Of a stretch of DNA of 64,000 nt, positions 43,220-54,428 are shown piece by piece; the first letter of the stretch is position 1, and the number at the start of each line of letters is the position of its first letter. The DNA is from Pseudohoeflea suaedae. GTDB lineage: Bacteria > Pseudomonadota > Alphaproteobacteria > Rhizobiales > Rhizobiaceae. Location: assembly GCF_004354915.1 (NCBI RefSeq), contig NZ_SMSI01000001.1:1178001-1242000 (forward strand), given 5' to 3'. Under the pieces are notes generated by a model, which had not been told where the DNA came from, searched no databases, and saw nothing but the letters and a program-made list of their open reading frames with translations. The position numbers and the translations under genes are program-made.

Positions 43220-46200
43220 GTGGAGAAGAGGGTGTCCGACGGTTACGAAAGCAATAATGCGCTAGACGAGGCATGTGCAGCTATCGGGCGTGATCCCAAT
43301 CCAGCTTACGTAAAAGACTCCGAACTGCGATATGTCGCGGTAAACGATGCCTATGCCGCCCTGTGGGATATCTCGCCTGCCGCGCTTGTCGGCCAGCAGA
43401 GCCACCAGCATTTCGAAGCCAGCGAACATGCCGATCGCGACGAGAAGGAGCGCCGCAGCCTCGTCTTCGGCAAGGAGCAAGTCGCCCTTTTCACCCACCC
43501 GCTGAACAACCAGTGCTACCGCATTCTGATCGAAAGACTTCGTGACCCGGACGGCAAACCCTTTGTTTGCGGGCATTTCGAGCCTGTCTCTGGCGCACGT
43601 CACGACGATACTTCCGTTCAGGCCGGCACGCGGTCACGCCCCGCACAGGTGTCGGTTCAAGCCGACGATCCGGATGCGGCGGCGGGCAATGATCATCTCT
43701 TGCTGAAATCCGCCATCGAACAGGCCGGTATCCCGATGGCGGTCGAGGATGACAGGGGCAGGCTGGTTGCGGCCAGCGCCTCCTATCTGGGATATCGCGG
43801 TACCTTCACCGAAACGGACCTCCCGCTGGGCGGGCGGCTGCTTAAAGGCAAGGCATCCGCGGAAGAAGGCGACGGCAAGCCGGCCACGCTCGCTTCCGTC
43901 GCGCGCGCGGTCGAGGGCGTGAATGCGCGTCTGCACGAGGCGCTCGACAAGATCGATGTCGGTATCGTGCTCTACGGGCCGGACGACAAGTACATCTATG
44001 CCAACCCGGCATTGCTCAAGCTGATCGGCGATACCTACGAAATGAAGCCGGGCATGAGCCGCAGGGAAATACTGCAGGCGGCCTGGGAAAGCCAGAACAT
44101 CCCCGAGGATCGCGACGAGTGGGTGAAGTCGCGCATGGGCAGCCACCATGCCTATGGCGAGGTCTTCATCGACAAGCTCGGCAATGGCCGCTGGCTCAGG
44201 ATGGTCAACCAGAAGCTCGCCGACGGATCGACACTCGGCCTTCGCCTGGATGTCACGGAGCTCGTTGAGCGTGAGCAGGCACTGACCCGAAAGGAAACGG
44301 AAAACGGCTTGTATCGCGCGGTTCTCGAAGAACTGCCGATCCCGTCCTTCATCAAGGACGAGGACAGCAAGTTCGTTTTCGTCAACCGTGCTTTCGCCGA
44401 ATTCGCCAAGACCCCGGCGGAAACGCTGATCGGCGATGACGGCGCCAAGGTTCTGGCCAAGCCGCGAGAGCCGGTCATGGAGACCGATATCGAGGTGCTC
44501 GAGACCGGTGAGCCGATGGAACTCGAGGTTCACATCCCGGACGACGAAGGTCGCGAACTGACCTATCTGACCCGCAAGGCGCGCTTTACCGCCGTGAGCG
44601 GTGAGAAGTACCTTTTGTGCTCGACGGTCAACGTCACCAACATGAAGGATCGCGAGAACGAGCTTCGTCTGGCGCGCGAGACGGCTGAATCCGCTGCGGG
44701 CATGCTCGGTCTGGCGACCGGCGCCATGGTGCAGGGCATGGTCATCGTGGTCGATGGCAAGGTATCTTTCACCAATGCCAAGTTCCGTGAGCTTCTCGAC
44801 GTTCCCGGAGAGGTCGTGAAGCCGGGGCTCGAGTACCGCGACTTCGTCCAATATTGCGCCGATCGGGGCGATTTCGATTCCATGGGCCGCGAAGCGACGA
44901 CGAAGATGATCATCGAGGCGGCGGAAGACCGCCGCTCCTACGAGACCGAACGGTGTCTGCCCAACGGCACCTGGGTCAAGATCCATTCGCAGGCGACCGA
45001 GAACAACACGCTTGTGATCACCTACACCGATATCACGGACGCCAAGAACCGTGAGGCCCGTCTGGGCGAACTGCTTGTGAAGGCGGAAGCCGCCGACCGC
45101 GCCAAATCCGAGTTCCTGGCAAACATGAGCCACGAGATACGCACGCCGATGAACGGTGTCCTGGGCATGGCCGAACTGCTGGCGCGCACCCAGCTCGACA
45201 GCCGCCAGAAGACGTTTACCGACATCATCGCCAAATCCGGCAATGCGCTGCTGACGATCATCAACGACATTCTGGATTTCTCCAAGATCGATGCAGGCCA
45301 GCTCGTTCTCGAAAACGCCCCCTTCGATCTGCGCGAGACCGTCGAGGACGTTGCGGCCCTCGTCTCCGCCCGCGCAATGGAGAAGGATGTCGAGCTCATC
45401 GTTCGTGCCGATCCCGTACTCGATGCGCGCGTTGCAGGCGATGTCGGCCGCATGCGCCAGGTGCTGACCAATATCGTCGGCAATGCCGTGAAGTTTACGG
45501 AAAGCGGCCACGTCCTCGTCGAGCTCGACGGCAAACCGGTATCTGCCGACCGCCTGGCCCTGACCATTCGTGTCGAAGACACCGGTATCGGTATTCCCGA
45601 GGATAAGCTCGATACGGTGTTCGAGAAATTCTCGCAGGTCGACGCCTCGTCCACCCGCCGCCACGAGGGAACCGGGCTGGGACTTGCGATCACCGCGCGC
45701 CTGCTCGACATGATGGGCGGTTCAATCAGTGTCGAAAGCACGCACGGCGAGGGCTCGGTTTTCACGGTGCGTCTGGAGATGTCGCGCGATACCGATTACG
45801 TCCCCGTCGACCGGCCGCAGATCGACATCAAGGGCGCACGGATTCTCGTCATCGACGACAACGCGGTCAATCGCGAGATCCTGACCGAACAGCTCGCGGC
45901 ATGGGGCCTTGATGGCTGCGCGGCCAGCTCCGGCGACGAAGGTGAGCACGTGCTCGAGGTTGCCCGCCGTTTCGGCATGCATGTCGATGCCCTGATCCTC
46001 GATTACCAGATGCCGGAGCGCAATGGCGCCGAAGTTGCCCGTTCGATCCGTGCAAAATATCCGGCCGACGAACTGCCCATATTGATGCTCACCTCGATGG
46101 ACATCCGCAGTGCCGAGCCGGATTTTGCCGCTCTCGACGTCCAGGCCACCTTGATGAAGCCGGCGCGCTCCGCCTTGCTTCTGGAGACCCTTGTCGACGC

Positions 46201-46891
46201 CATCCGGACGGGCGCTTCAAGCGGCAAGTTCAGCGTGACGGCCAAGGCGGATGGCGCCGCCGCTGAAATGACCGGGGAACTCTCCGCGCTTGTCGAGATA
46301 GAAGCGCCTTCGCTCGTGCCAGAAGATGACTTCGTGGGTGAGGTCGATCAGCCCCGCCCGGAGGAAGCCGCGCCCGCGTCGCCGCAAGACTGGCTCGATG
46401 AGATGAATGCAGGGCAGGGCGCTGAAGACGAGATCGAGGCGCCCCTCCGGAAGATCGTGGCGAAACCGTCCTCGGGCAATGGAACAGTCGATATCCTGGT
46501 CGCGGAGGACAACGAGGTGAACCAGATCGTCTTCACCCAGATCCTCGAGCAGATGGGGGCCAACTATCTTCTGGTCTCCGACGGTGCGCAGGCAGTCGCC
46601 GCATGGCGCGAGCACCGCCCGTCGATCGTCCTGATGGACGTATCGATGCCGGTGATGAACGGCTACCGCGCGACCGGGACTATCCGTGAGATCGAGCAGG
46701 CCGACCGGTCACTGGGCCATACCCCGATCATCGGCGTGACTGCGCATGCGCTTCCCGGTGACCGCGAACGCTGCATCGATGCAGGAATGGACGACTATCT
46801 TTCCAAGCCGATCAGCCCGGAAAAGCTGGACACCAAGGTTCGCCAATGGCTGCCGCTGGCAATTTCAGAGCGGCTCATCTCCGAAGGCTAG
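43220..46891 (+). CDS. large PAS-domain hybrid histidine kinase with two receiver domains
   Basis: A 1223-aa cytoplasmic hybrid kinase without TM segments. Four PAS-like domains (about residues 8-115, 235-355, 362-480 and 490-615) precede HisKA (NMSHEIRTPMNGVLG, phospho-His near 638), HATPase (NIVGNAVKFT; GTGLGLAITARLL) and two receivers: RILVIDDNAVN...LDYQMPERNG and DILVAEDNEVN...LMDVSMPVMNG, both with Asp and Lys kept. The GTG at 43220 may instead be 43232, which has GGAG upstream. No HPt domain is attached, so it likely passes phosphate to a separate protein. Confidence 0.9.
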   Translation: MEKRVSDGYESNNALDEACAAIGRDPNPAYVKDSELRYVAVNDAYAALWDISPAALVGQQSHQHFEASEHADRDEKERRSLVFGKEQVALFTHPLNNQCYRILIERLRDPDGKPFVCGHFEPVSGARHDDTSVQAGTRSRPAQVSVQADDPDAAAGNDHLLLKSAIEQAGIPMAVEDDRGRLVAASASYLGYRGTFTETDLPLGGRLLKGKASAEEGDGKPATLASVARAVEGVNARLHEALDKIDVGIVLYGPDDKYIYANPALLKLIGDTYEMKPGMSRREILQAAWESQNIPEDRDEWVKSRMGSHHAYGEVFIDKLGNGRWLRMVNQKLADGSTLGLRLDVTELVEREQALTRKETENGLYRAVLEELPIPSFIKDEDSKFVFVNRAFAEFAKTPAETLIGDDGAKVLAKPREPVMETDIEVLETGEPMELEVHIPDDEGRELTYLTRKARFTAVSGEKYLLCSTVNVTNMKDRENELRLARETAESAAGMLGLATGAMVQGMVIVVDGKVSFTNAKFRELLDVPGEVVKPGLEYRDFVQYCADRGDFDSMGREATTKMIIEAAEDRRSYETERCLPNGTWVKIHSQATENNTLVITYTDITDAKNREARLGELLVKAEAADRAKSEFLANMSHEIRTPMNGVLGMAELLARTQLDSRQKTFTDIIAKSGNALLTIINDILDFSKIDAGQLVLENAPFDLRETVEDVAALVSARAMEKDVELIVRADPVLDARVAGDVGRMRQVLTNIVGNAVKFTESGHVLVELDGKPVSADRLALTIRVEDTGIGIPEDKLDTVFEKFSQVDASSTRRHEGTGLGLAITARLLDMMGGSISVESTHGEGSVFTVRLEMSRDTDYVPVDRPQIDIKGARILVIDDNAVNREILTEQLAAWGLDGCAASSGDEGEHVLEVARRFGMHVDALILDYQMPERNGAEVARSIRAKYPADELPILMLTSMDIRSAEPDFAALDVQATLMKPARSALLLETLVDAIRTGASSGKFSVTAKADGAAAEMTGELSALVEIEAPSLVPEDDFVGEVDQPRPEEAAPASPQDWLDEMNAGQGAEDEIEAPLRKIVAKPSSGNGTVDILVAEDNEVNQIVFTQILEQMGANYLLVSDGAQAVAAWREHRPSIVLMDVSMPVMNGYRATGTIREIEQADRSLGHTPIIGVTAHALPGDRERCIDAGMDDYLSKPISPEKLDTKVRQWLPLAISERLISEG

Positions 46892-46894
46892 GTT

Positions 46895-47608
46895 TCAGCC
46901 GAGACGACCCGCGCACATTTCCCGCTTGCCGGAGAAGCCGGGCTGCTTGGTCACGATGAAACCCGCGGCAGCGAGATTGCGGCGCACCCAGCCGGCGGAG
47001 GTGTAGGTCGCAAAGGTGCCGCCCGGCTGCGTGTGCCGTGCGATCTCCGCCATCAATTCCGCCGACCACATGTCAGGATTGCGCGATGGCGCGAAGCCGT
47101 CGAGATACCAGGCATCCGCCAGTCCGGTCCAATCGGCTATCCTGTCTTCTGCAGCGCCGACGCAGATGGTGAGCGAAACGGTTCCGAATACGAGCGTGAT
47201 ATCGGCCTCGGGGCCCGTTTCCGGCCAGGCCCGCGCAAGCGCGTCGGCTTCCCCGGCGACTTCCGGCCAGACTGACAGTGCACGCGTGATATCCGTCCGC
47301 GTCATCGGATAACGCTCGAAACTGACGAAACGAAGCGATGCCGGGGCGTCAAGCAGCTTCCAATGCCGCCATGTCTCGACGAAGTTCAGACCGGTCCCGA
47401 AACCTGTCTCGCCGATCGTGAATTCGCTTGTGTCCGGCCAGCGGTCAGGCAGGCGGTTTCCCGCGATGAAGACGTGGGCGCATTCCTGCCGCCCGTCGGC
47501 CCGGGAGTAAAAATGGTCGCCAAAAAGCGGCGAATAGGGCATATCGCCCTCATGCCATTCGATGCCGAACGGGGCAGCCCCGTCCTTCTTTCCGGAATTC
47601 TCGCTCAT
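46895..47608 (-). CDS. mnmD: tRNA 5-methylaminomethyl-2-thiouridine methyltransferase MnmD
   Basis: A 237-aa protein homologous to the methyltransferase half of MnmC. Motif GETGFGTGLNFVETW is the SAM-binding site, and YLDGFAPSRNPDMW is the family signature. It completes mnm5s2U34 in the wobble position of certain tRNAs. The gene converges 3 nt from the hybrid kinase, and its start codon overlaps head to head with an FAD oxidoreductase. Confidence 0.93.
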   Translation of the reverse strand: MSENSGKKDGAAPFGIEWHEGDMPYSPLFGDHFYSRADGRQECAHVFIAGNRLPDRWPDTSEFTIGETGFGTGLNFVETWRHWKLLDAPASLRFVSFERYPMTRTDITRALSVWPEVAGEADALARAWPETGPEADITLVFGTVSLTICVGAAEDRIADWTGLADAWYLDGFAPSRNPDMWSAELMAEIARHTQPGGTFATYTSAGWVRRNLAAAGFIVTKQPGFSGKREMCAGRLG

Positions 47609-48806
47609 GCCGCAAGCCGATAACCAGCTTGCGCCCGGCGGTCAATCGACCGCCGACCTCGTCGTCATCGGCGGCGGGGTTGCGGGACTGTGGACGTCAC
47701 TCAAGGCCTTGCGTGCCGGTCTCTCCGTCATCCTCGTCGAAAAGTCGGGGCTGGCGGCGGGCGCCAGCGGTGGTTTCATGGGTGCGCTCATGCCGCACAT
47801 GCCGGAGCGCTGGGATGACAAGAAGCAGTTCCAGTACGAGGCTCTCTGTGCGCTTGAGAGCGAAGCCGCGCGGCTTGAAGACGAAACCGGTCTGCCTGTC
47901 CATTATCGCCGCGTGGGGCGCCTGACCCCCTTGTTCTCGGAGCGCCAGAGGATGCAGGCGGAAGCCCGGATCGAGGCGGCAAGGCCGGTCTGGAACGGGC
48001 GCTTTGCCTACAGTCTCCCGGCGCTCGAGGACCATGCCGCATGGCTCGACCCCGACGCGGCGCCGTTCGGAGCGGTTTATGACGATCTGTCCGCCCGCGT
48101 TTCGCCTTCTCATCTGCTCGGCGCCCTGGACGCGGCATCCTCCGCCAACGCGCAATTCCGGATGGTGAAGGGTGAAGCGGCAGCCATCGATAGCGACGTC
48201 GCATCTCTTGAACTGACTGATGGTTCGGTCGTTTCCTTCGGCAATCTGGTCATCGCCGCGGGCCTCGGCGCATTTCCGTTGATCGAGAGCCTGACAGGCT
48301 GTCCAGGCGGTTCGCTCGGCAATCCGGTCAAGGGGCAGGCGGCGTTGTTCGCAGTCAAATCTCTTCCCGCGCTGGCCGATGACCTGCCGGTCATTTTCGG
48401 CGACGGCACCTATGTGATCGCCCATGGCGATGGAACGCTTGCGGTTGGCGCGACGAGCGAGACGGAATTTCTCGACCCTTTCACGACGGATGAGAAGCTC
48501 GATGCGGTGATGGAAAAGGCCAGACGTCTCTCGCCGGCCTTGGCAAACGCCAGGCTGGTAGAGCGCTGGGCCAATCTCCGGCCCCGTCCGGCAGGGCGTG
48601 ACCCGATGCTCGGCCAAGTGCCCGGCTGCCCGAACGTGTATGCCGTCGCCGGTGGCTACAAGATTACCTTCGGCATCGCCCATTACATGGCGGATGCGGT
48701 ACTGGCTTCGATAACCGGAGGCCATGGGCCTGCCATTCCGCCAACATTCCTGCCCGAGGCCCATATCGCGAAATCGAAATCGCGGCTTGCCAAAAACCAT
48801 GCCTGA
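47607..48806 (+). CDS. FAD-dependent oxidoreductase, possible MnmC oxidase half
   Basis: A 399-aa DAO-family flavoprotein with a GGGVAGLWTSLKALRAGLSV Rossmann motif, GASGGFMGALMPHMPERWDD after it, and a C-terminal AVAGGYKITFGIAHYMAD. The fold and length match the oxidase half of MnmC (cmnm5 to nm5 step) as well as glycine-oxidase-like enzymes. The head-to-head location with mnmD supports the MnmC reading. The start at 47607 shares the CATG with mnmD; a longer frame from 47562 would overlap it by 47 nt. Confidence 0.68.
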   Translation: MPQADNQLAPGGQSTADLVVIGGGVAGLWTSLKALRAGLSVILVEKSGLAAGASGGFMGALMPHMPERWDDKKQFQYEALCALESEAARLEDETGLPVHYRRVGRLTPLFSERQRMQAEARIEAARPVWNGRFAYSLPALEDHAAWLDPDAAPFGAVYDDLSARVSPSHLLGALDAASSANAQFRMVKGEAAAIDSDVASLELTDGSVVSFGNLVIAAGLGAFPLIESLTGCPGGSLGNPVKGQAALFAVKSLPALADDLPVIFGDGTYVIAHGDGTLAVGATSETEFLDPFTTDEKLDAVMEKARRLSPALANARLVERWANLRPRPAGRDPMLGQVPGCPNVYAVAGGYKITFGIAHYMADAVLASITGGHGPAIPPTFLPEAHIAKSKSRLAKNHA

Positions 48807-48876
48807 AGTCATTGGCCGCACTCGACTTTATGCCGTGCGCTGCTAGTCTCGCCTGGTATTGAGGCAGGGACATTTC

Positions 48877-49791
48877 ATGACGAACGACACTTATCCGCGC
48901 GATCTTGTCGGCTATGGCCGCGAGGTCCCCTTCGCAGATTGGCCGAACGGCGCACATCTCGCCGTTCAGTTTGTGCTCAACTACGAGGAAGGCGGCGAAA
49001 GCAATATCCTCGATGGCGACCCCGCATCGGAATCGCTGCTGTCGGAGATCGTCGGCGCGCAGCCATGGCCGGGGCAGCGCAATCTCAACATGGAATCGAT
49101 CTATGAATACGGTTCGCGCGCCGGCTTCTGGCGGCTGTGGCGGATGTTCACCGAGCGCAACATGACGCTGACCGTCTACGGTGTGGCACTCGCCATGGCG
49201 CGCAATCCCGAAGCCGTGGCGGCCATGAAGGAAGCCGACTGGGAAATCGCCAGTCACGGTCTGCGCTGGCTGGAGTACAAGGACTTCGCCGAGGAGGAAG
49301 AGCGCCGTCACATCGCCGAATGCGTGCGCCTCCATACCGAGGCCACCGGCTCGCGTCCGCTCGGCATCTATCAGGGCAAGCCCTCCGCCAATACGCTGAA
49401 ACTGGTGATGGAAGAGGGCGGCTTCGTCTATTCGGCCGATTCCTACGCCGATGAACTGCCCTATTACGTTGACGGTCCAAACGGGCCGCATCTGATCGTG
49501 CCCTATACGCTCGACGCCAACGACATGCGCTTTGCCACTCCACAGGGTTTCAACTCGGGCGACCAGTTCTACGCCTATCTCAAGGACAGTTTCGACGTGC
49601 TGATGGCCGAAGGGGCCGCAGGCAGCCCCAAGATGATGTCGATCGGCCTTCACTGCCGTCTGGTCGGACGTCCCGGCCGCGCGGCTGCCCTTGCGCGTTT
49701 CCTCGATTATGTGGCGTCGCATGACAAGGCATGGGTCTGCCGCCGCATCGATATCGCCAATCACTGGCTCACCCGGCACCCGCCGAAATAG
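48877..49791 (+). CDS. puuE: allantoinase PuuE
   Basis: A 304-aa NodB-like metal-independent allantoinase (VQFVLNYEEGGESNILDGD, RNLNMESIYEYGSRAGFWR, SHGLRWLEYKDF). It hydrolyses allantoin to allantoate. GAGGCAGGGA precedes ATG 48877. It heads a run with the OHCU decarboxylase, ureidoglycolate lyase and HIU hydrolase genes, all of purine breakdown. Confidence 0.93.
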   Translation: MTNDTYPRDLVGYGREVPFADWPNGAHLAVQFVLNYEEGGESNILDGDPASESLLSEIVGAQPWPGQRNLNMESIYEYGSRAGFWRLWRMFTERNMTLTVYGVALAMARNPEAVAAMKEADWEIASHGLRWLEYKDFAEEEERRHIAECVRLHTEATGSRPLGIYQGKPSANTLKLVMEEGGFVYSADSYADELPYYVDGPNGPHLIVPYTLDANDMRFATPQGFNSGDQFYAYLKDSFDVLMAEGAAGSPKMMSIGLHCRLVGRPGRAAALARFLDYVASHDKAWVCRRIDIANHWLTRHPPK

Positions 49792-49894
49792 CCGATCTCG
49801 ATTGTGAACAACCGGAATGCCTGCGTGAATTCGGTAGCCTGATGAGGCTACAGCTTTGCATGTGAAGGTGAAACGGCCCAGACGGAGACCAGCC

Positions 49895-50395
49895 ATGACC
49901 CGAGAGGAATTTGTCGAGCAGTTCGGCGGCGTGTTCGAACACTCGCCCTGGATCGCCGAACGTGCCTGGGATCACGATCGCATCGATGACCCCTTGACGA
50001 GTGTCGGCGTCCACGAAGCCATGTGCGCGGAATTTAGGACCGCAAGCCGCAAGGCGCGTACGGAGGTGCTGCGGGCGCACCCGGACCTGGCCGGACGCCT
50101 GGCGCTCGCAAACCAGCTCACCGCCTCGTCCAGGGCAGAGCAGGCCGGCGCCGGTCTCGACCGGCTGACGCCCGAAGAGCTGGAACGGTTCACCGAGCTC
50201 AATCAGCGCTACATGGAAAAATTCGGATTTCCCTTCATCATCGCGGTCAGGGGGCATGACAAGACCTCCATCCTCGAAGCTTTCGAGGAGCGCGTGACCC
50301 ATTCCGAGGACGACGAGTTCGACGTCGCCTGCGGCCAGGTCGAGCGCATCGCCGGGTTCCGTATCGCCGACATGATCAAGGGAGACGCTGCGTGA
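49895..50395 (+). CDS. uraD: 2-oxo-4-hydroxy-4-carboxy-5-ureidoimidazoline decarboxylase
   Basis: A 166-aa OHCU decarboxylase that forms S-allantoin. Typical motifs FVEQFGGVFEHSPWIAERAW and LRAHPDLAGRLA occur, plus FGFPFIIAVRGHDK. GGAGA precedes the ATG at 49895. Its end overlaps the GTG start of allA. Confidence 0.95.
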   Translation: MTREEFVEQFGGVFEHSPWIAERAWDHDRIDDPLTSVGVHEAMCAEFRTASRKARTEVLRAHPDLAGRLALANQLTASSRAEQAGAGLDRLTPEELERFTELNQRYMEKFGFPFIIAVRGHDKTSILEAFEERVTHSEDDEFDVACGQVERIAGFRIADMIKGDAA

Positions 50396-50883
50396 CGGCC
50401 CTCGTCTGCGAACCCATCGGCAGGGAGGTATTCGCGCCTTTCGGCGAGGTGATGACCATCGAGGGCGCCGAACTGCGCATGATCAATGGCGGCACGACCG
50501 AACGCTTTCATGCACTGGCGACGGCCGATACCGAAACGGAGGACGGCAGGACTATCGTCTCGCTGTTTCGCGGGCAACCACGCCGGTTTCCGTACCGGGT
50601 CGGCATGATGGAGCGACACCCGCTCGGCAGTCAGGCCTTTTTCCCTGTCACGGGCGGGGACTGGATCGCGGTCGTGGCCGGCGACGAGAGCGGCAGACCC
50701 GGCGCGCCGCGCGCCTTTGTCGTCCCGGGCAATGTCGGCCTGCAATATGGTCGGAATGTCTGGCACCATCCGCTGATCGCCGTCGGTAGGGTGAGCGACT
50801 TTCTGGTCGTGGACCGCGAAGGACCGGGCAACAATCTGGAAGAGGCCGATTATCCGGCCCCCTATATTCTGACAGCACCGTGA
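50392..50883 (+). CDS. allA: ureidoglycolate lyase
   Basis: A 163-aa AllA enzyme splitting ureidoglycolate into glyoxylate and urea ([15 protein letters not shown] and [16 protein letters not shown] with metal or substrate His). It overlaps uraD by 4 nt (GTGA). The urea can then be consumed by the urease encoded at 29-38 kb. Confidence 0.94.
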
Positions 50884-50894
50884 GGGAGACTGAC

Positions 50895-51269
50895 ATGACG
50901 AACGTCAAGCAGGGCGAAGGCCGCCTGACCACCCACGTTCTCGACACCGCGAGCGGCCAGCCCGCGTCGGGCATGCAGATCGAGCTTTTTCGTCTGGAGA
51001 ACGGCGAATGGGTCTCGATCCGGTCGGTTGTGACCAACTATGATGGCCGCGTGGACGGCGCATTGCTGCTCGGCATGGAAATGCGTGCGGGCACCTACCG
51101 CCTGGTATTCCATGCTGGCGATTATTTCCGCGAGAACGGCGTAACACTACCGGATCCGGCTTTTCTCGACGTCATCCCGATCCGCTTCGGGATCGCCGAT
51201 TCACAGAGCCACTATCACGTGCCGCTGCTCGTCTCGCCCTACAGCTATTCCACCTATCGTGGCAGCTGA
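50895..51269 (+). CDS. uraH: 5-hydroxyisourate hydrolase
   Basis: A 124-aa transthyretin-like HIU hydrolase. The N-terminal [14 protein letters not shown] and the C-terminal [19 protein letters not shown] signatures are intact. It acts between urate hydroxylation and OHCU decarboxylation. The ATG at 50895 follows AGGGAGA. Confidence 0.96.
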
Positions 51270-51453
51270 GGCAGGTTCGACTGAAATTTCATGGCCAGAA
51301 AAAGCAAAAGCCGCGTGGCAGTACATCCGTGCACACGCGACCCTAAACAATCCGAAGACTGCTGCTGAAGAACAGCTTGCAACAGCTTGGTTAACAAATG
51401 GTTAAGACGGTTTCGTGACAGAAGGTGATTAGTTCGGCTGAAGCTTCGCCGGC

Positions 51454-51861
51454 TCAGGCCGCCCGATGTCCGACCGTCACCTTCACGCCTCGCTGAAGCG
51501 TATTGGCGACCATGCAGGTCTGTTCCGCCCTTGCGACGAGTTCGGCAGTGTCGCCGCCGTCCTTGCGGGTGCAGTGAACGGAAAGATGCGCTTCCTGTGT
51601 GACGAGCGGCTCGCCGCCGAGTTTCACCGTAACCGTGACTTCCAGCGTATCGACCTCGATCCCGAGGGATTCGGCGGCAAAACGCAGGCTGTTGCAGAAG
51701 CAGCCGCCCATGGCGAGGGCGAGCATTTGTGCGCCGCTGAAGCCGAGCCCGGAGCCGCCGGCCTTGCCTTCGTGCCGATCGATGACGACGGTATGGCCGC
51801 CGGCCCAACCCATGGCCGCTCCCGTTCCCGGAACATTGCGCAGCTCGACCGTGGTTTCCAT
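51454..51861 (-). CDS. OsmC-family peroxidase-like protein
   Basis: A 135-aa OsmC/Ohr-family protein with two Cys placed as in the family (MGGCFCNSLRFAAESLG and ARAEQTCMVANTLQRG). It probably reduces organic hydroperoxides. It lies downstream of guaD on the same strand, 27 nt away. Confidence 0.85.
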   Translation of the reverse strand: METTVELRNVPGTGAAMGWAGGHTVVIDRHEGKAGGSGLGFSGAQMLALAMGGCFCNSLRFAAESLGIEVDTLEVTVTVKLGGEPLVTQEAHLSVHCTRKDGGDTAELVARAEQTCMVANTLQRGVKVTVGHRAA

Positions 51862-51888
51862 GATGTGCCTCTCCTGCCTTGCGGTTCG

Positions 51889-53193
51889 TCAGCGCCGGTC
51901 GGGATGCGAGGCGCGGCCCGCGACATAGACCTCGCGGATGGAACGGTCGTCGCCCATGGTCTGCAGGAGGAACAGTTCCTCCTCGAGGGATCCCACCGTT
52001 TCCTTTCGAATGGCCATTGTCGGGGTGGATCCGGAATCCAGGACGATGAGATCGGCATCGGTTCCTGCGGCCAGCGTGCCGATCCGCTTTTCGAGCCCCA
52101 GGGCTTCGGCATTGCCGCGCGTCGCCCACCAGAAGCTTTCGATGGGGGAGAGGCGGTTCTTCTGCAATTGCTGGATCTTGTAGGCTTCGTCGAGCGTGCG
52201 CAGCATGGAATAGCTCGTGCCGCCGCCGATATCCGTGGCGACCGCGACCCGCACATTGTGGGCATCGATCCGCTTGAGGTCGAAAAGCCCGGAACCCAGG
52301 AAGAGGTTCGACGTGGGGCAGTGCACGGCAATCGAACCGGCTTCGGCGATCGCGCCCATTTCACGGTCCGAGAGGTGGATGGCGTGCCCCAGAAGCGTCT
52401 TTCTGCCCAGCAGTCCGTAGTGGGCGTAGATGTCGGTATAGTCCTTCGCCTCGGGATAGAGCTTCATCGTGAGCTCGATCTCGGCATCGTTCTCCGACAG
52501 ATGCGTCTGGATGTGCAGGTCAGGGAATTCCCCGGCCAGCGTCTGCGCCATTTCCAACTGTTCCGGCGTCGAGGTGATCGCGAAGCGTGGCGTGATCGCC
52601 ACCAGCGAACGGCCGCGGCCATGCCAGCGCGAGATGAGCTTCTTGGTGTCCTCGTAGCTGCTCTCGGGCGTGTCGGTGAGCTTGCCCGGCGCATTGCGGT
52701 CCATCATCACCTTGCCGCCGATCATCATCAGCTTGCGCTGGCAGGCGGTTTCGAAGAAGGCGTCCGCAGACGCCGGGTGGACCGAACAGAAGGCCGAGGC
52801 GGTCGTGGTGCCGTGCCGCAGCAATTCGTCGAAGAACAGCCCTGCGAAACGCTCCGCATGTTCCCTGCCGGCGAAGCGTTGCTCCTCGACGAAGGTGTAG
52901 GTGTTGAGCCATTCGAGCAGGCTCGCCGCGTAGGAGGAGACGACCTGCATCTGCGGGAAATGGATATGCGGGTCGATGAAGCCCGGCATGATCAGATGCG
53001 GCCGGTGATCGATGACCTCGATATCGTCAGCCGCTTCGCCCCTGATGTCCTGGAAGGTGCCGCAGGAAGCGATCCGTCCCTCCGCTATCAGCAGCGCGCC
53101 GTCTTCCTCGTAGAAATAGCTTGCGGTGTCGGCCCGGTCGGCGGGACGCGATACGAACGACAGAAGCCGTCCGCGAAGTATCTTGGCCGTCAT
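51889..53193 (-). CDS. guaD: guanine deaminase
   Basis: A 434-aa amidohydrolase that turns guanine into xanthine. Zinc-binding PGFIDPHIHFPQMQ, HLSEND, GHAIHLSDREM and ATDIGGGTSYSML motifs. The start at 53193 overlaps the puuD stop (ATGA). It feeds xanthine dehydrogenase. Confidence 0.94.
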   Translation of the reverse strand: MTAKILRGRLLSFVSRPADRADTASYFYEEDGALLIAEGRIASCGTFQDIRGEAADDIEVIDHRPHLIMPGFIDPHIHFPQMQVVSSYAASLLEWLNTYTFVEEQRFAGREHAERFAGLFFDELLRHGTTTASAFCSVHPASADAFFETACQRKLMMIGGKVMMDRNAPGKLTDTPESSYEDTKKLISRWHGRGRSLVAITPRFAITSTPEQLEMAQTLAGEFPDLHIQTHLSENDAEIELTMKLYPEAKDYTDIYAHYGLLGRKTLLGHAIHLSDREMGAIAEAGSIAVHCPTSNLFLGSGLFDLKRIDAHNVRVAVATDIGGGTSYSMLRTLDEAYKIQQLQKNRLSPIESFWWATRGNAEALGLEKRIGTLAAGTDADLIVLDSGSTPTMAIRKETVGSLEEELFLLQTMGDDRSIREVYVAGRASHPDRR

Positions 53194-54428
53194 TGTGCCT
53201 CGCCCGAAACTGCGGATTCGTACCAGGCGACGATCAGCCGGCGTTCCTCGCCGGAAATCATCGTGATGTTGCCTGGCGGCATGGCGTGGGCGCGGCCGGC
53301 CTGGAGGTAGATTTCTCGGGCATGCATGGCAATCTCGTTCGGCGTTTCCAGTTTCACGTTTTTCGGCGCGCGGTGAATGCCTTCCCAGACGGGTTCTGCG
53401 GCATGACACATCGAGCACCGGCTTGTCACTGTTTCCGTGATGGCATCGAAATGGGCGTTCTCTGCAAAGCGGGTGAACCCCGCGGGCAGTGCTGCCGCCT
53501 CGGCGTCTTCATTGACCGGTGCCTGGATGGTCGACAGCCACATGATGCAGATGAACAGGATCGCGGTCGCAAGCCAGGTCCAGTACGGGCTGCCCCGCCG
53601 CGCGTGCCGCGTGTTGAACCAGTGCCTTATCGTCACGCCCATCAGGAAGACCAGGCTCGCGATCACCCAGTTGTACTGAGACGCGAATGCCAGCGGATAA
53701 TGGTTCGACAGCATCAGGAAGAGGACCGGCAGGGTGAGGTAGTTGTTGTGGGTCGAGCGCTGTTTGGCGATCTTGCCGTATTTGGGGTCCGGTGTGCGTC
53801 CGGCGATCAGGTCGGCGACCACGATCTTCTGGTTCGGTATGATGATATGGGCGACATTGGCGGTCATGATCGTGGCGGTAAAGGCACCCAGATGCAGCAG
53901 CGCGGCGCGACCGGTGAACACCTGATTGTAGCCCCAGGCCATGCCGACCAGGATGGCGAACAGGACCAGCATCAACCCGTTCGTATGCTCGCCGATGGGC
54001 GATTTACAGAGCAGATCGTAGACGACCCAGCCGAGGGCGATCGAGCCGAAGGAGATGGCGATCGCGGCCCAGACCGGCAGTTCCATCTTTTCGGGGTCTA
54101 TGAGAAAGAGCTCCGCTCCGGCGTAATAGACAACACAGAGCATCGCGAAGCCGGACAGCCAGGTGGCATAGGATTCCCATTTGAACCAGGTCAGGTGCTC
54201 GGGCATCTCCTTGGGCGCCACCAGATATTTCTGGATATGGTAGAAGCCGCCGCCATGGACCTGCCATTCCTCGCCATGGGCCCCTTCGGGCAGGTCGGGG
54301 CGCTGTCTCAATCCCAGATCGAGCGCGATGAAATAGAATGACGAGCCGATCCATGCGATCGCGGTGATCACATGCAGCCAACGGACGGCGAAGGCCATCC
54401 ATTCCCAGGCAATCGCAAACTCGTACAT
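53190..54428 (-). CDS. puuD: urate hydroxylase PuuD with C-terminal cytochrome c domain
   Basis: A 412-aa inner-membrane protein: about eight helices (residues 10-310) with several His, and a periplasmic C-terminal cytochrome c domain (CSMCH haem site near 345). PuuD replaces soluble urate oxidase in many Rhizobiales. The start at 54428 is used; it is translationally coupled to guaD. Confidence 0.93.
   Translation of the reverse strand: MYEFAIAWEWMAFAVRWLHVITAIAWIGSSFYFIALDLGLRQRPDLPEGAHGEEWQVHGGGFYHIQKYLVAPKEMPEHLTWFKWESYATWLSGFAMLCVVYYAGAELFLIDPEKMELPVWAAIAISFGSIALGWVVYDLLCKSPIGEHTNGLMLVLFAILVGMAWGYNQVFTGRAALLHLGAFTATIMTANVAHIIIPNQKIVVADLIAGRTPDPKYGKIAKQRSTHNNYLTLPVLFLMLSNHYPLAFASQYNWVIASLVFLMGVTIRHWFNTRHARRGSPYWTWLATAILFICIMWLSTIQAPVNEDAEAAALPAGFTRFAENAHFDAITETVTSRCSMCHAAEPVWEGIHRAPKNVKLETPNEIAMHAREIYLQAGRAHAMPPGNITMISGEERRLIVAWYESAVSGEAQ

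Follow-up and report, generated by a model that had tools for sequence, protein, structure and literature searches.

In this study, we analysed a stretch of 64,000 nucleotides (nt) from Pseudohoeflea suaedae (Rhizobiaceae; contig NZ_SMSI01000001.1, positions 1,178,001 to 1,242,000), here called the window, which belongs to a host genome of 3.77 Mb. In it, two divergent genes begin on a single common CATG: mnmD, encoding a stand-alone tRNA methyltransferase, and a gene for an oxidoreductase dependent on flavin adenine dinucleotide (FAD), here called the FAD gene and FAD protein. The arrangement is real and conserved. As the best explanation for the whole, we consider it probable that the pair is a module made up of MnmD and an oxidase for 5-carboxymethylaminomethyluridine at tRNA position 34 (cmnm5U34), and that a promoter of mnmD is embedded in the 5′ end of the FAD reading frame.

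Organization of the locus and start codons

The following features, given in positions of the window, were annotated using open reading frame (ORF) coordinates, profile models, trees, conservation among related loci and the predicted local distance difference test (pLDDT) values of a protein model:

46895 to 47608, minus strand: mnmD, stand-alone, encoding an MnmC2-type tRNA methyltransferase for 5-aminomethyl-(2-thio)uridine (nm5(s2)U34), 237 amino acids (matches to NF033855, PF05430 and the MnmC N-domain)
47607 to 48806, plus strand: FAD-dependent oxidoreductase with DAO/glycine-oxidase fold, 399 amino acids from ATG 47607 (PF01266, trees, co-occurrence with MnmD)
47606 to 47609, no strand assigned: CATG common to both divergent start codons (ORF coordinates; found in 64 of 96 distinct loci)
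47640 to 47645, minus strand: −35-like hexamer TTGACC of the proposed mnmD promoter, equal to FAD codons 12–13 (GGT CAA) (conservation)
47617 to 47622, minus strand: −10-like hexamer TATCGG of the proposed mnmD promoter, within FAD codons 4–6 (conservation)
47607 to 47645, plus strand: N-terminal tail of the FAD protein, codons 1–13, coding plus promoter-like DNA (pLDDT, synonymously fixed codons)

The divergent pair sharing CATG without intergenic DNA, already pointed out in a preliminary description of this DNA, is borne out by the ORF coordinates at 47606–47609. The minus-strand mnmD gene starts with ATG 47608, and the FAD ORF starts on the plus strand either with ATG 47607 or with the in-frame ATG 47562. 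Within the first 50 codons of mnmD, a single alternative start is present, an ATG 22 codons in, which falls within the part that aligns with MnmC of E. coli. Downstream of ATG 47607, the next start in the FAD frame is TTG 47709, located beyond the FAD-binding motif.

By its profile matches, MnmD is unambiguously identified as a predicted, ordinary methyltransferase. It scored 257.6 bits with NF033855 over residues 24–235 (cut-off 136) and 126 bits with PF05430 (cut-off 22), and its best matches by sequence in the PDB are the N-domains of MnmC from Y. pestis and E. coli.

Conservation of the shared start

FAD orthologues were compared at 101 loci, comprising 21 from a genome set defined below and 80 that were the best-scoring of 373 relatives, so that the sample leans to close kin; most of the loci are from Rhizobiaceae. 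The mnmD gene is adjacent and divergent in 100 of these loci, and in 69 of the 101 the CATG is shared with ATG on both sides. After one locus (L011) with an in-frame stop in the FAD frame had been dropped, 68 of 100 divergent loci have the shared CATG. Four genomes are present twice, all among the CATG loci, which leaves 64 of 96 distinct loci. The choice of the start is not always forced: an alternative FAD start on either side is lacking in 12 of the 69 CATG loci, and an alternative mnmD start in 41 of them.

Placed on a quick tree of the FAD proteins, the shared start needs 5 changes, compared to a mean of 26.6 after shuffling, and still 5 when L011 is relabelled; therefore, the shared CATG is inherited and not due to chance. 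The Sinorhizobium/Ensifer group and its close relatives lack it, and among the outer loci it is patchy or missing. Three matched genomes of a distant family (G082, G214, G312) have a divergent pair whose start is not shared. Two further observations concern the location of these loci. In S. meliloti, the FAD orthologue sits on replicons of 1.6–2.0 Mb filed as plasmids (records H3–H7, H9 and H10), a size that we take to be that of pSymB. One contig (L080) is filed under an Arenimonas metagenome-assembled genome and carries a Ciceribacter-like locus, probably due to a binning error.

Co-occurrence of the FAD gene with mnmD

The genome set comprised 61 genomes, namely that of P. suaedae and those of 60 relatives; FAD orthologues in it score at least 221 bits, while the best match elsewhere reaches 59 bits. 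Both genes are present in 21 genomes, MnmD only in two (G036 and G042), the FAD gene only in none and neither gene in 38, MnmD thereby exceeding its cut-off in 23 of the 61. For this co-occurrence, Fisher's test gave a p of 2e-14, with phylogeny ignored. One of the 38 genomes with neither gene (G030) has an MnmD match just below the cut-off.

A wider sample of the class comprised 289 genomes, in which a strong MnmD domain was defined by an E-value below 1e-16 and a match to the FAD alignment by E≤1e-40. Open frames of at least 500 amino acids were counted as fused MnmC; 13 of the 33 genomes assigned in this way were fetched, with a single ORF of at least 622 amino acids. A strong MnmD domain was found in 49 of the 289 genomes, 33 times fused and 16 times stand-alone. 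At E≤1e-40, the FAD alignment has no match in the 33 genomes with fused MnmC and a match in five of the 289 genomes, all of which have a stand-alone MnmD. In one of these five (G143), the related DAO protein (L139) falls just outside the FAD clade described below, and the stand-alone MnmD lies on another contig. Thus, the FAD gene tracks MnmD, and the pair belongs together. Among the stand-alone MnmD loci lacking a FAD match, four of the seven examined carry a match to MnmC(o) next to MnmD. In three loci from other alphaproteobacteria (L155, L157, L160), the stand-alone MnmD is immediately followed by a co-directional MnmC(o) of the E. coli type, and in L159 such an MnmC(o) lies next to a stand-alone MnmD in another frame.

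Family, phylogeny and residues of the FAD protein

The FAD protein belongs to the superfamily with DAO/glycine-oxidase fold (PF01266: 148.4 bits, cut-off 27.9). It reached 70.4 bits with TIGR03197, the model for MnmC(o)/MnmC1 (cut-off 174.2), 22 bits with NF001933 for DadA (cut-off 383), and 118.4 bits with TIGR02352 for ThiO (cut-off 250.8), the latter being its best NCBIfam score and still below the cut-off. The genome of P. suaedae has no ThiO over the cut-off, and the FAD protein is its best match to the ThiO model. DAO paralogues often reach 100–160 bits with this model, and a true ThiO is present as well in several of the genomes. An assignment as glycine oxidase by the ThiO score was rejected, since this range is background among DAO paralogues.

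In a tree of 63 rows, the FAD clade (24 rows) received a support of 100/100. The MnmC(o) clade (17 rows, fused and tandem forms including that of E. coli) was supported by 99/99 and the clade of ThiO and glycine oxidase (GOX) (15 rows) by 98/91, with the FAD protein outside of both. After removal of three long or short rows, a second tree gave 100/100 for FAD, 100/100 for MnmC(o) and 94/84 for ThiO. Because of the TIGR03197 score below cut-off and its own fully supported clade, the FAD protein is, as judged by these models and trees, not an MnmC(o) orthologue, and its clade is separate from those of MnmC(o) and ThiO.

Residues R302 and Y246 of GOX, whose numbers we take as reference sites, correspond to R325 in 24 of 24 FAD-clade rows and to Y269 in 22 of 24, respectively. 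Gln244 of the FAD protein is common to MnmC(o) (15 of 16), while ThiO has Glu at this position (12 of 12). Other nearly invariant columns of the FAD clade are His64, Lys72, Lys73, Gln76, Arg102, Arg105 and His273; that such residues contact the tRNA would be a guess. The predicted model of the FAD protein has a mean pLDDT of 85.9, with residues 1–11 below 50 (disordered), and is nearest by fold to glycine oxidase 1ng3 (Z 41.8, 355 residues, root-mean-square deviation 2.0). For MnmC1 itself, a portion of PMC3648344 names glycine oxidase as the closest structural relative and describes the reactions as analogous.

A promoter-like element within the FAD gene

On the minus strand, FAD codons 4–13 contain the element TTGACC-N17-TATCGG (47645–47640 and 47622–47617), which ends 8 nt upstream of the mnmD ATG. 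Of the 68 secure CATG loci, 65 (61 of the 64 distinct ones) have the layout TTGAC-N18-TA[TA]C[GC][GC]-N8-ATG, and of the 28 other loci scored, 20 have a similar one with N6–7 to the ATG. Three of the 100 divergent loci (L008, L018, L019) are unscored in this respect. In control positions on the minus strand elsewhere in FAD genes, TTGAC-N18-TA[TA]C occurred at none of 69,020 positions. In two loci (L068, L075), the −10 element lies 23 nt instead of 8 nt from the chosen mnmD ATG.

The element is constrained at the DNA level. Loci of the Sinorhizobium type keep it although their FAD gene begins after it, which means that protein constraint is no explanation there. Within the FAD gene, a single codon is used throughout at codons 5 (GAT, 38 of 38), 12 (GGT, 37 of 37) and 13 (CAA, 40 of 40); across 41 non-redundant FAD genes, none of the other conserved columns, 146 in all with these three, is fixed in this way. 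In the rest of the FAD gene, GGT accounts for 17% of the Gly codons and CAA for 23% of the Gln codons.

Compared with the rhizobial σ70 consensus, TTGAC, the 17-nt spacer and TAT fit, and the final T of the −10 hexamer is missing. The consensus is given as CTTGAC-N16-23-TATNNT and CTTGAC-N~17-cTATat in the sections of PMC4943231 used here, and PMC4696191 is, in its respective part, a further source for comparison of hexamers of rhizobial primary-sigma promoters. Taken together, fit and constraint support TTGACC-N17-TATCGG as a candidate σ70-like promoter of mnmD. As the candidate −10 hexamer ends 8 nt before the ATG, mnmD is probably leaderless, and the N-terminal tail of the FAD protein is probably translated promoter DNA. 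Leaderless mRNAs are known from S. meliloti, for which 171, all of them with AUG, are reported in PMC3616915.

Proposed function and alternative explanations

We propose that the two-gene module would carry out the last two steps in the synthesis of 5-methylaminomethyl-(2-thio)uridine (mnm5(s2)U34). The genome of P. suaedae encodes both MnmG and MnmE in adjacent genes and has no match to the MnmM model PF06962, and TIGR01212, which we take to be MnmL, exceeds its cut-off in none of the 61 genomes. Other alphaproteobacteria have a fused MnmC, or MnmD with tandem MnmC(o). The base cmnm5U is an N-substituted glycine; the fold family of the FAD protein oxidises glycine and N-substituted glycines, and cmnm5(s2)U34 would fit that substrate class. 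From the co-occurrence with MnmD, we infer that the FAD protein removes the carboxymethyl group, thereby converting cmnm5(s2)U34 to nm5(s2)U34, which MnmD would methylate to mnm5(s2)U34. The oxidase would then be a non-orthologous, or at least long-separated, replacement for MnmC(o). As to expression, a σ70-like mnmD promoter would be located on the minus strand within the first 13 FAD codons, the mRNA of mnmD would begin at, or at most about 2 nt from, its AUG, and the unstructured tail of the FAD protein would be promoter DNA that gets translated. A more far-reaching version must be regarded as tentative and has the lesser chance of being correct: a distinct cmnm5(s2)U34 oxidase may have been recruited independently in Rhizobiaceae and at least one distant family, and in Rhizobiaceae transcription of the oxidase gene across the dual-coding start may tune the promoter of the leaderless mnmD and thereby set the order or ratio of the two steps.

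Several observations weigh against the proposed module and its promoter. In both trees, L139 and DadA of E. coli are the closest neighbours of the FAD clade (95/81 and 96/87), DadA being represented by this one row with a long branch of 2.4. An approximately unbiased (AU) test of a single clade of FAD protein and MnmC(o) gave a p of 0.205, by which this clade is not rejected, and an independent origin of the FAD oxidase is therefore not claimed as demonstrated. The equivalent of R329, the second arginine of GOX, is Lys352 in 24 of 24 FAD rows and Ser or Ala in MnmC(o). By fold, MnmC ranks only 20th (Z 35.1), behind glycine oxidase and other amine oxidases. In G036 (L185) and G042 (L186), MnmD occurs without the FAD gene, and no match to FAD, MnmC(o) or ThiO was found within about 5 kb of it; in G043, the FAD gene and mnmD are on different contigs. 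In the core Rhizobiaceae, genes of purine catabolism lie downstream of the FAD gene and could be another link, PuuE being found within 3 kb in 68 and UraD in 60 of 80 loci. Regarding the promoter, the −10 hexamer TATCGG deviates from the consensus in its last position, a strict scan of 46600–49000 for E. coli-type promoters found none, and a general preference for low GC near gene starts may contribute to the codon fixation.

Part of these points would be accounted for by a free amino-acid or amine oxidase or dehydrogenase (acting on glycine or sarcosine, of the DadA type, or in purine/ureide breakdown) whose gene merely abuts mnmD. The nearest fold, the ThiO model as best score in a genome without ThiO over the cut-off, the grouping with DadA and the PuuE and UraD neighbours are all in line with it. 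However, the protein neither reaches the cut-off of the ThiO model nor falls into the ThiO clade, its score is usual for DAO paralogues even in genomes holding a true ThiO as well, and the DadA row is a long branch. MnmD accompanies the FAD gene in 21 of 21 genomes, and among 20 distant genomes (own genus left out) MnmD is near the FAD gene in 19, whereas purine genes are near it in only 7, or 8 with one weak PuuE match. Accordingly, we regard a free oxidase as unlikely. A role in the purine pathway, conserved in the core Rhizobiaceae and missing in 12 or 13 of these 20 genomes, was rejected. In the preliminary description, clustering of the FAD protein with amino-acid oxidases, together with unchanged tRNA modification in its mutant, had been named as the outcome that would speak against a tRNA-modifying function. 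The FAD protein stands apart from ThiO; yet it groups with the long-branch DadA of E. coli and L139, and since these two stand beside the FAD clade in both trees, an affinity with D-amino-acid dehydrogenases is possible.

Alternatively, the FAD protein could be a true MnmC(o) orthologue that was split from a fused MnmC and then inverted. Fold and, by inference, reaction are the same, the AU test allows a common clade, and a tandem MnmC(o) following MnmD exists in some other alphaproteobacteria. Against this, fused and tandem MnmC(o) form a clade of their own in both trees, the FAD proteins form another, and the TIGR03197 score is 70 bits as against a cut-off of 174, which makes such an origin quite improbable. 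The preliminary description had termed the locus a split MnmC. This holds clearly for MnmD; for the FAD protein it is not supported by profile score and clade, with the reservation of the AU result.

Instead of acting as an mnmD promoter, the conserved element could be a regulator site or an aid to FAD translation. The negative promoter scan would agree with this, as would the Sinorhizobium-type loci, in which the GGTCAA end sits just before the FAD start. Yet the 17-nt spacing is fixed, the distance to the mnmD ATG is nearly fixed in both gene layouts, and TTGAC matches rhizobial promoters, so that we attach little probability to this alternative and prefer the reading as a promoter of mnmD.

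Transcription of the FAD gene and neighbouring genes

The preliminary description had placed each promoter inside the partner gene, as a possible basis for mutual control. For mnmD, a promoter-type element indeed lies in the FAD gene, but no conserved FAD promoter was seen in mnmD: the 120 nt upstream of the FAD start hold no conserved block except TC beside the ATG. A plus-strand GATAAT as FAD −10 was rejected, because in CATG loci the transcript would start after the FAD ATG. At 47569–47583 on the plus strand, 23 nt upstream of the FAD ATG, a GC-rich hairpin is followed by a C/T run. Since the FAD mRNA has to begin no further right than the shared CATG, its polymerase has to cross the candidate mnmD promoter, and a one-way interference of FAD transcription with this promoter is thus possible.

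A gene that presumably encodes a hybrid PAS histidine kinase (43220–46891) is convergent with mnmD, and its stop lies 3 nt from that of mnmD. From this layout it can be proposed that the FAD gene is transcribed from the convergent upstream kinase gene through mnmD in antisense, as in a noncontiguous operon, which would be compatible with the module and its embedded promoter. The lack of a conserved FAD promoter in mnmD and the short distance between the stops, which in 33 of the 53 kinase-matched loci is at most 30 nt, fit this proposal. Of 80 loci, however, no more than 53 have a kinase match within 3 kb, and 20 of these show a wider gap; we therefore consider such read-through rather doubtful.

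Downstream of the FAD gene, the window contains a purine-catabolism cluster (48859–53418), whose products are presumably a PuuE-like allantoinase, a UraD-like protein, further ring-opening enzymes and a deaminase.

Significance and comparison with known systems

If true, the proposed function would single out one candidate gene for the oxidase step that is missing at the wobble uridine in a large group of plant-associated bacteria, from a family distinct from MnmC(o). In the element, promoter DNA would be translated into protein, a clear natural case of such double use with three synonymous sites fixed amid drifting codons, and the predicted leaderless start on the shared CATG would be part of the same case. 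The separation of MnmC1 and MnmC2 as such is already known, as non-fused orthologues of both are noted in a portion of PMC3648344. A description of the MnmD–FAD pair reported here was not found in a literature search, judged by the titles and abstract openings of its matches.

The bifunctional MnmC of E. coli and Y. pestis has the same methyltransferase family, the same FAD fold in its oxidase and, by inference, the same two reactions. It differs from the pair of P. suaedae, which consists of two divergent genes with an oxidase in a separate clade below the MnmC(o) cut-off that carries Lys352 where MnmC(o) has Ser or Ala. The stand-alone MnmD/MnmC2 of Aquifex (DUF752, 3vyw) is likewise a methyltransferase without fused oxidase, while here a conserved oxidase gene is the neighbour and the sequence resembles the N-domain of MnmC from proteobacteria more closely. 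The tandem MnmD–MnmC(o) loci also use separate genes for the two steps; unlike the divergent pair, they are co-directional and encode an oxidase of the E. coli type.

In Bacillus, MnmL is reportedly, in work of Jaroch et al. from 2024, a radical S-adenosylmethionine protein, unlike the FAD oxidase. MnmL and MnmM, both named in a review table of PMC12548931, likewise divide these steps between two enzymes, and MnmM is, according to a part of PMC9976899, another methylase, unlike MnmD. With ThiO and the sarcosine, iminodiacetate and dimethylglycine oxidases, the FAD protein has the fold, FAD and the equivalents of R302 and Y246 in common; it differs from ThiO/glycine oxidase by its separate clade, by Lys in place of R329 and by its tie to MnmD. 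Opposing transcripts that would overlap are also a feature of the excludon or noncontiguous operon (PMC7154746). In contrast to these arrangements, the promoter-like element described here is dual-coding and located at a shared start codon.

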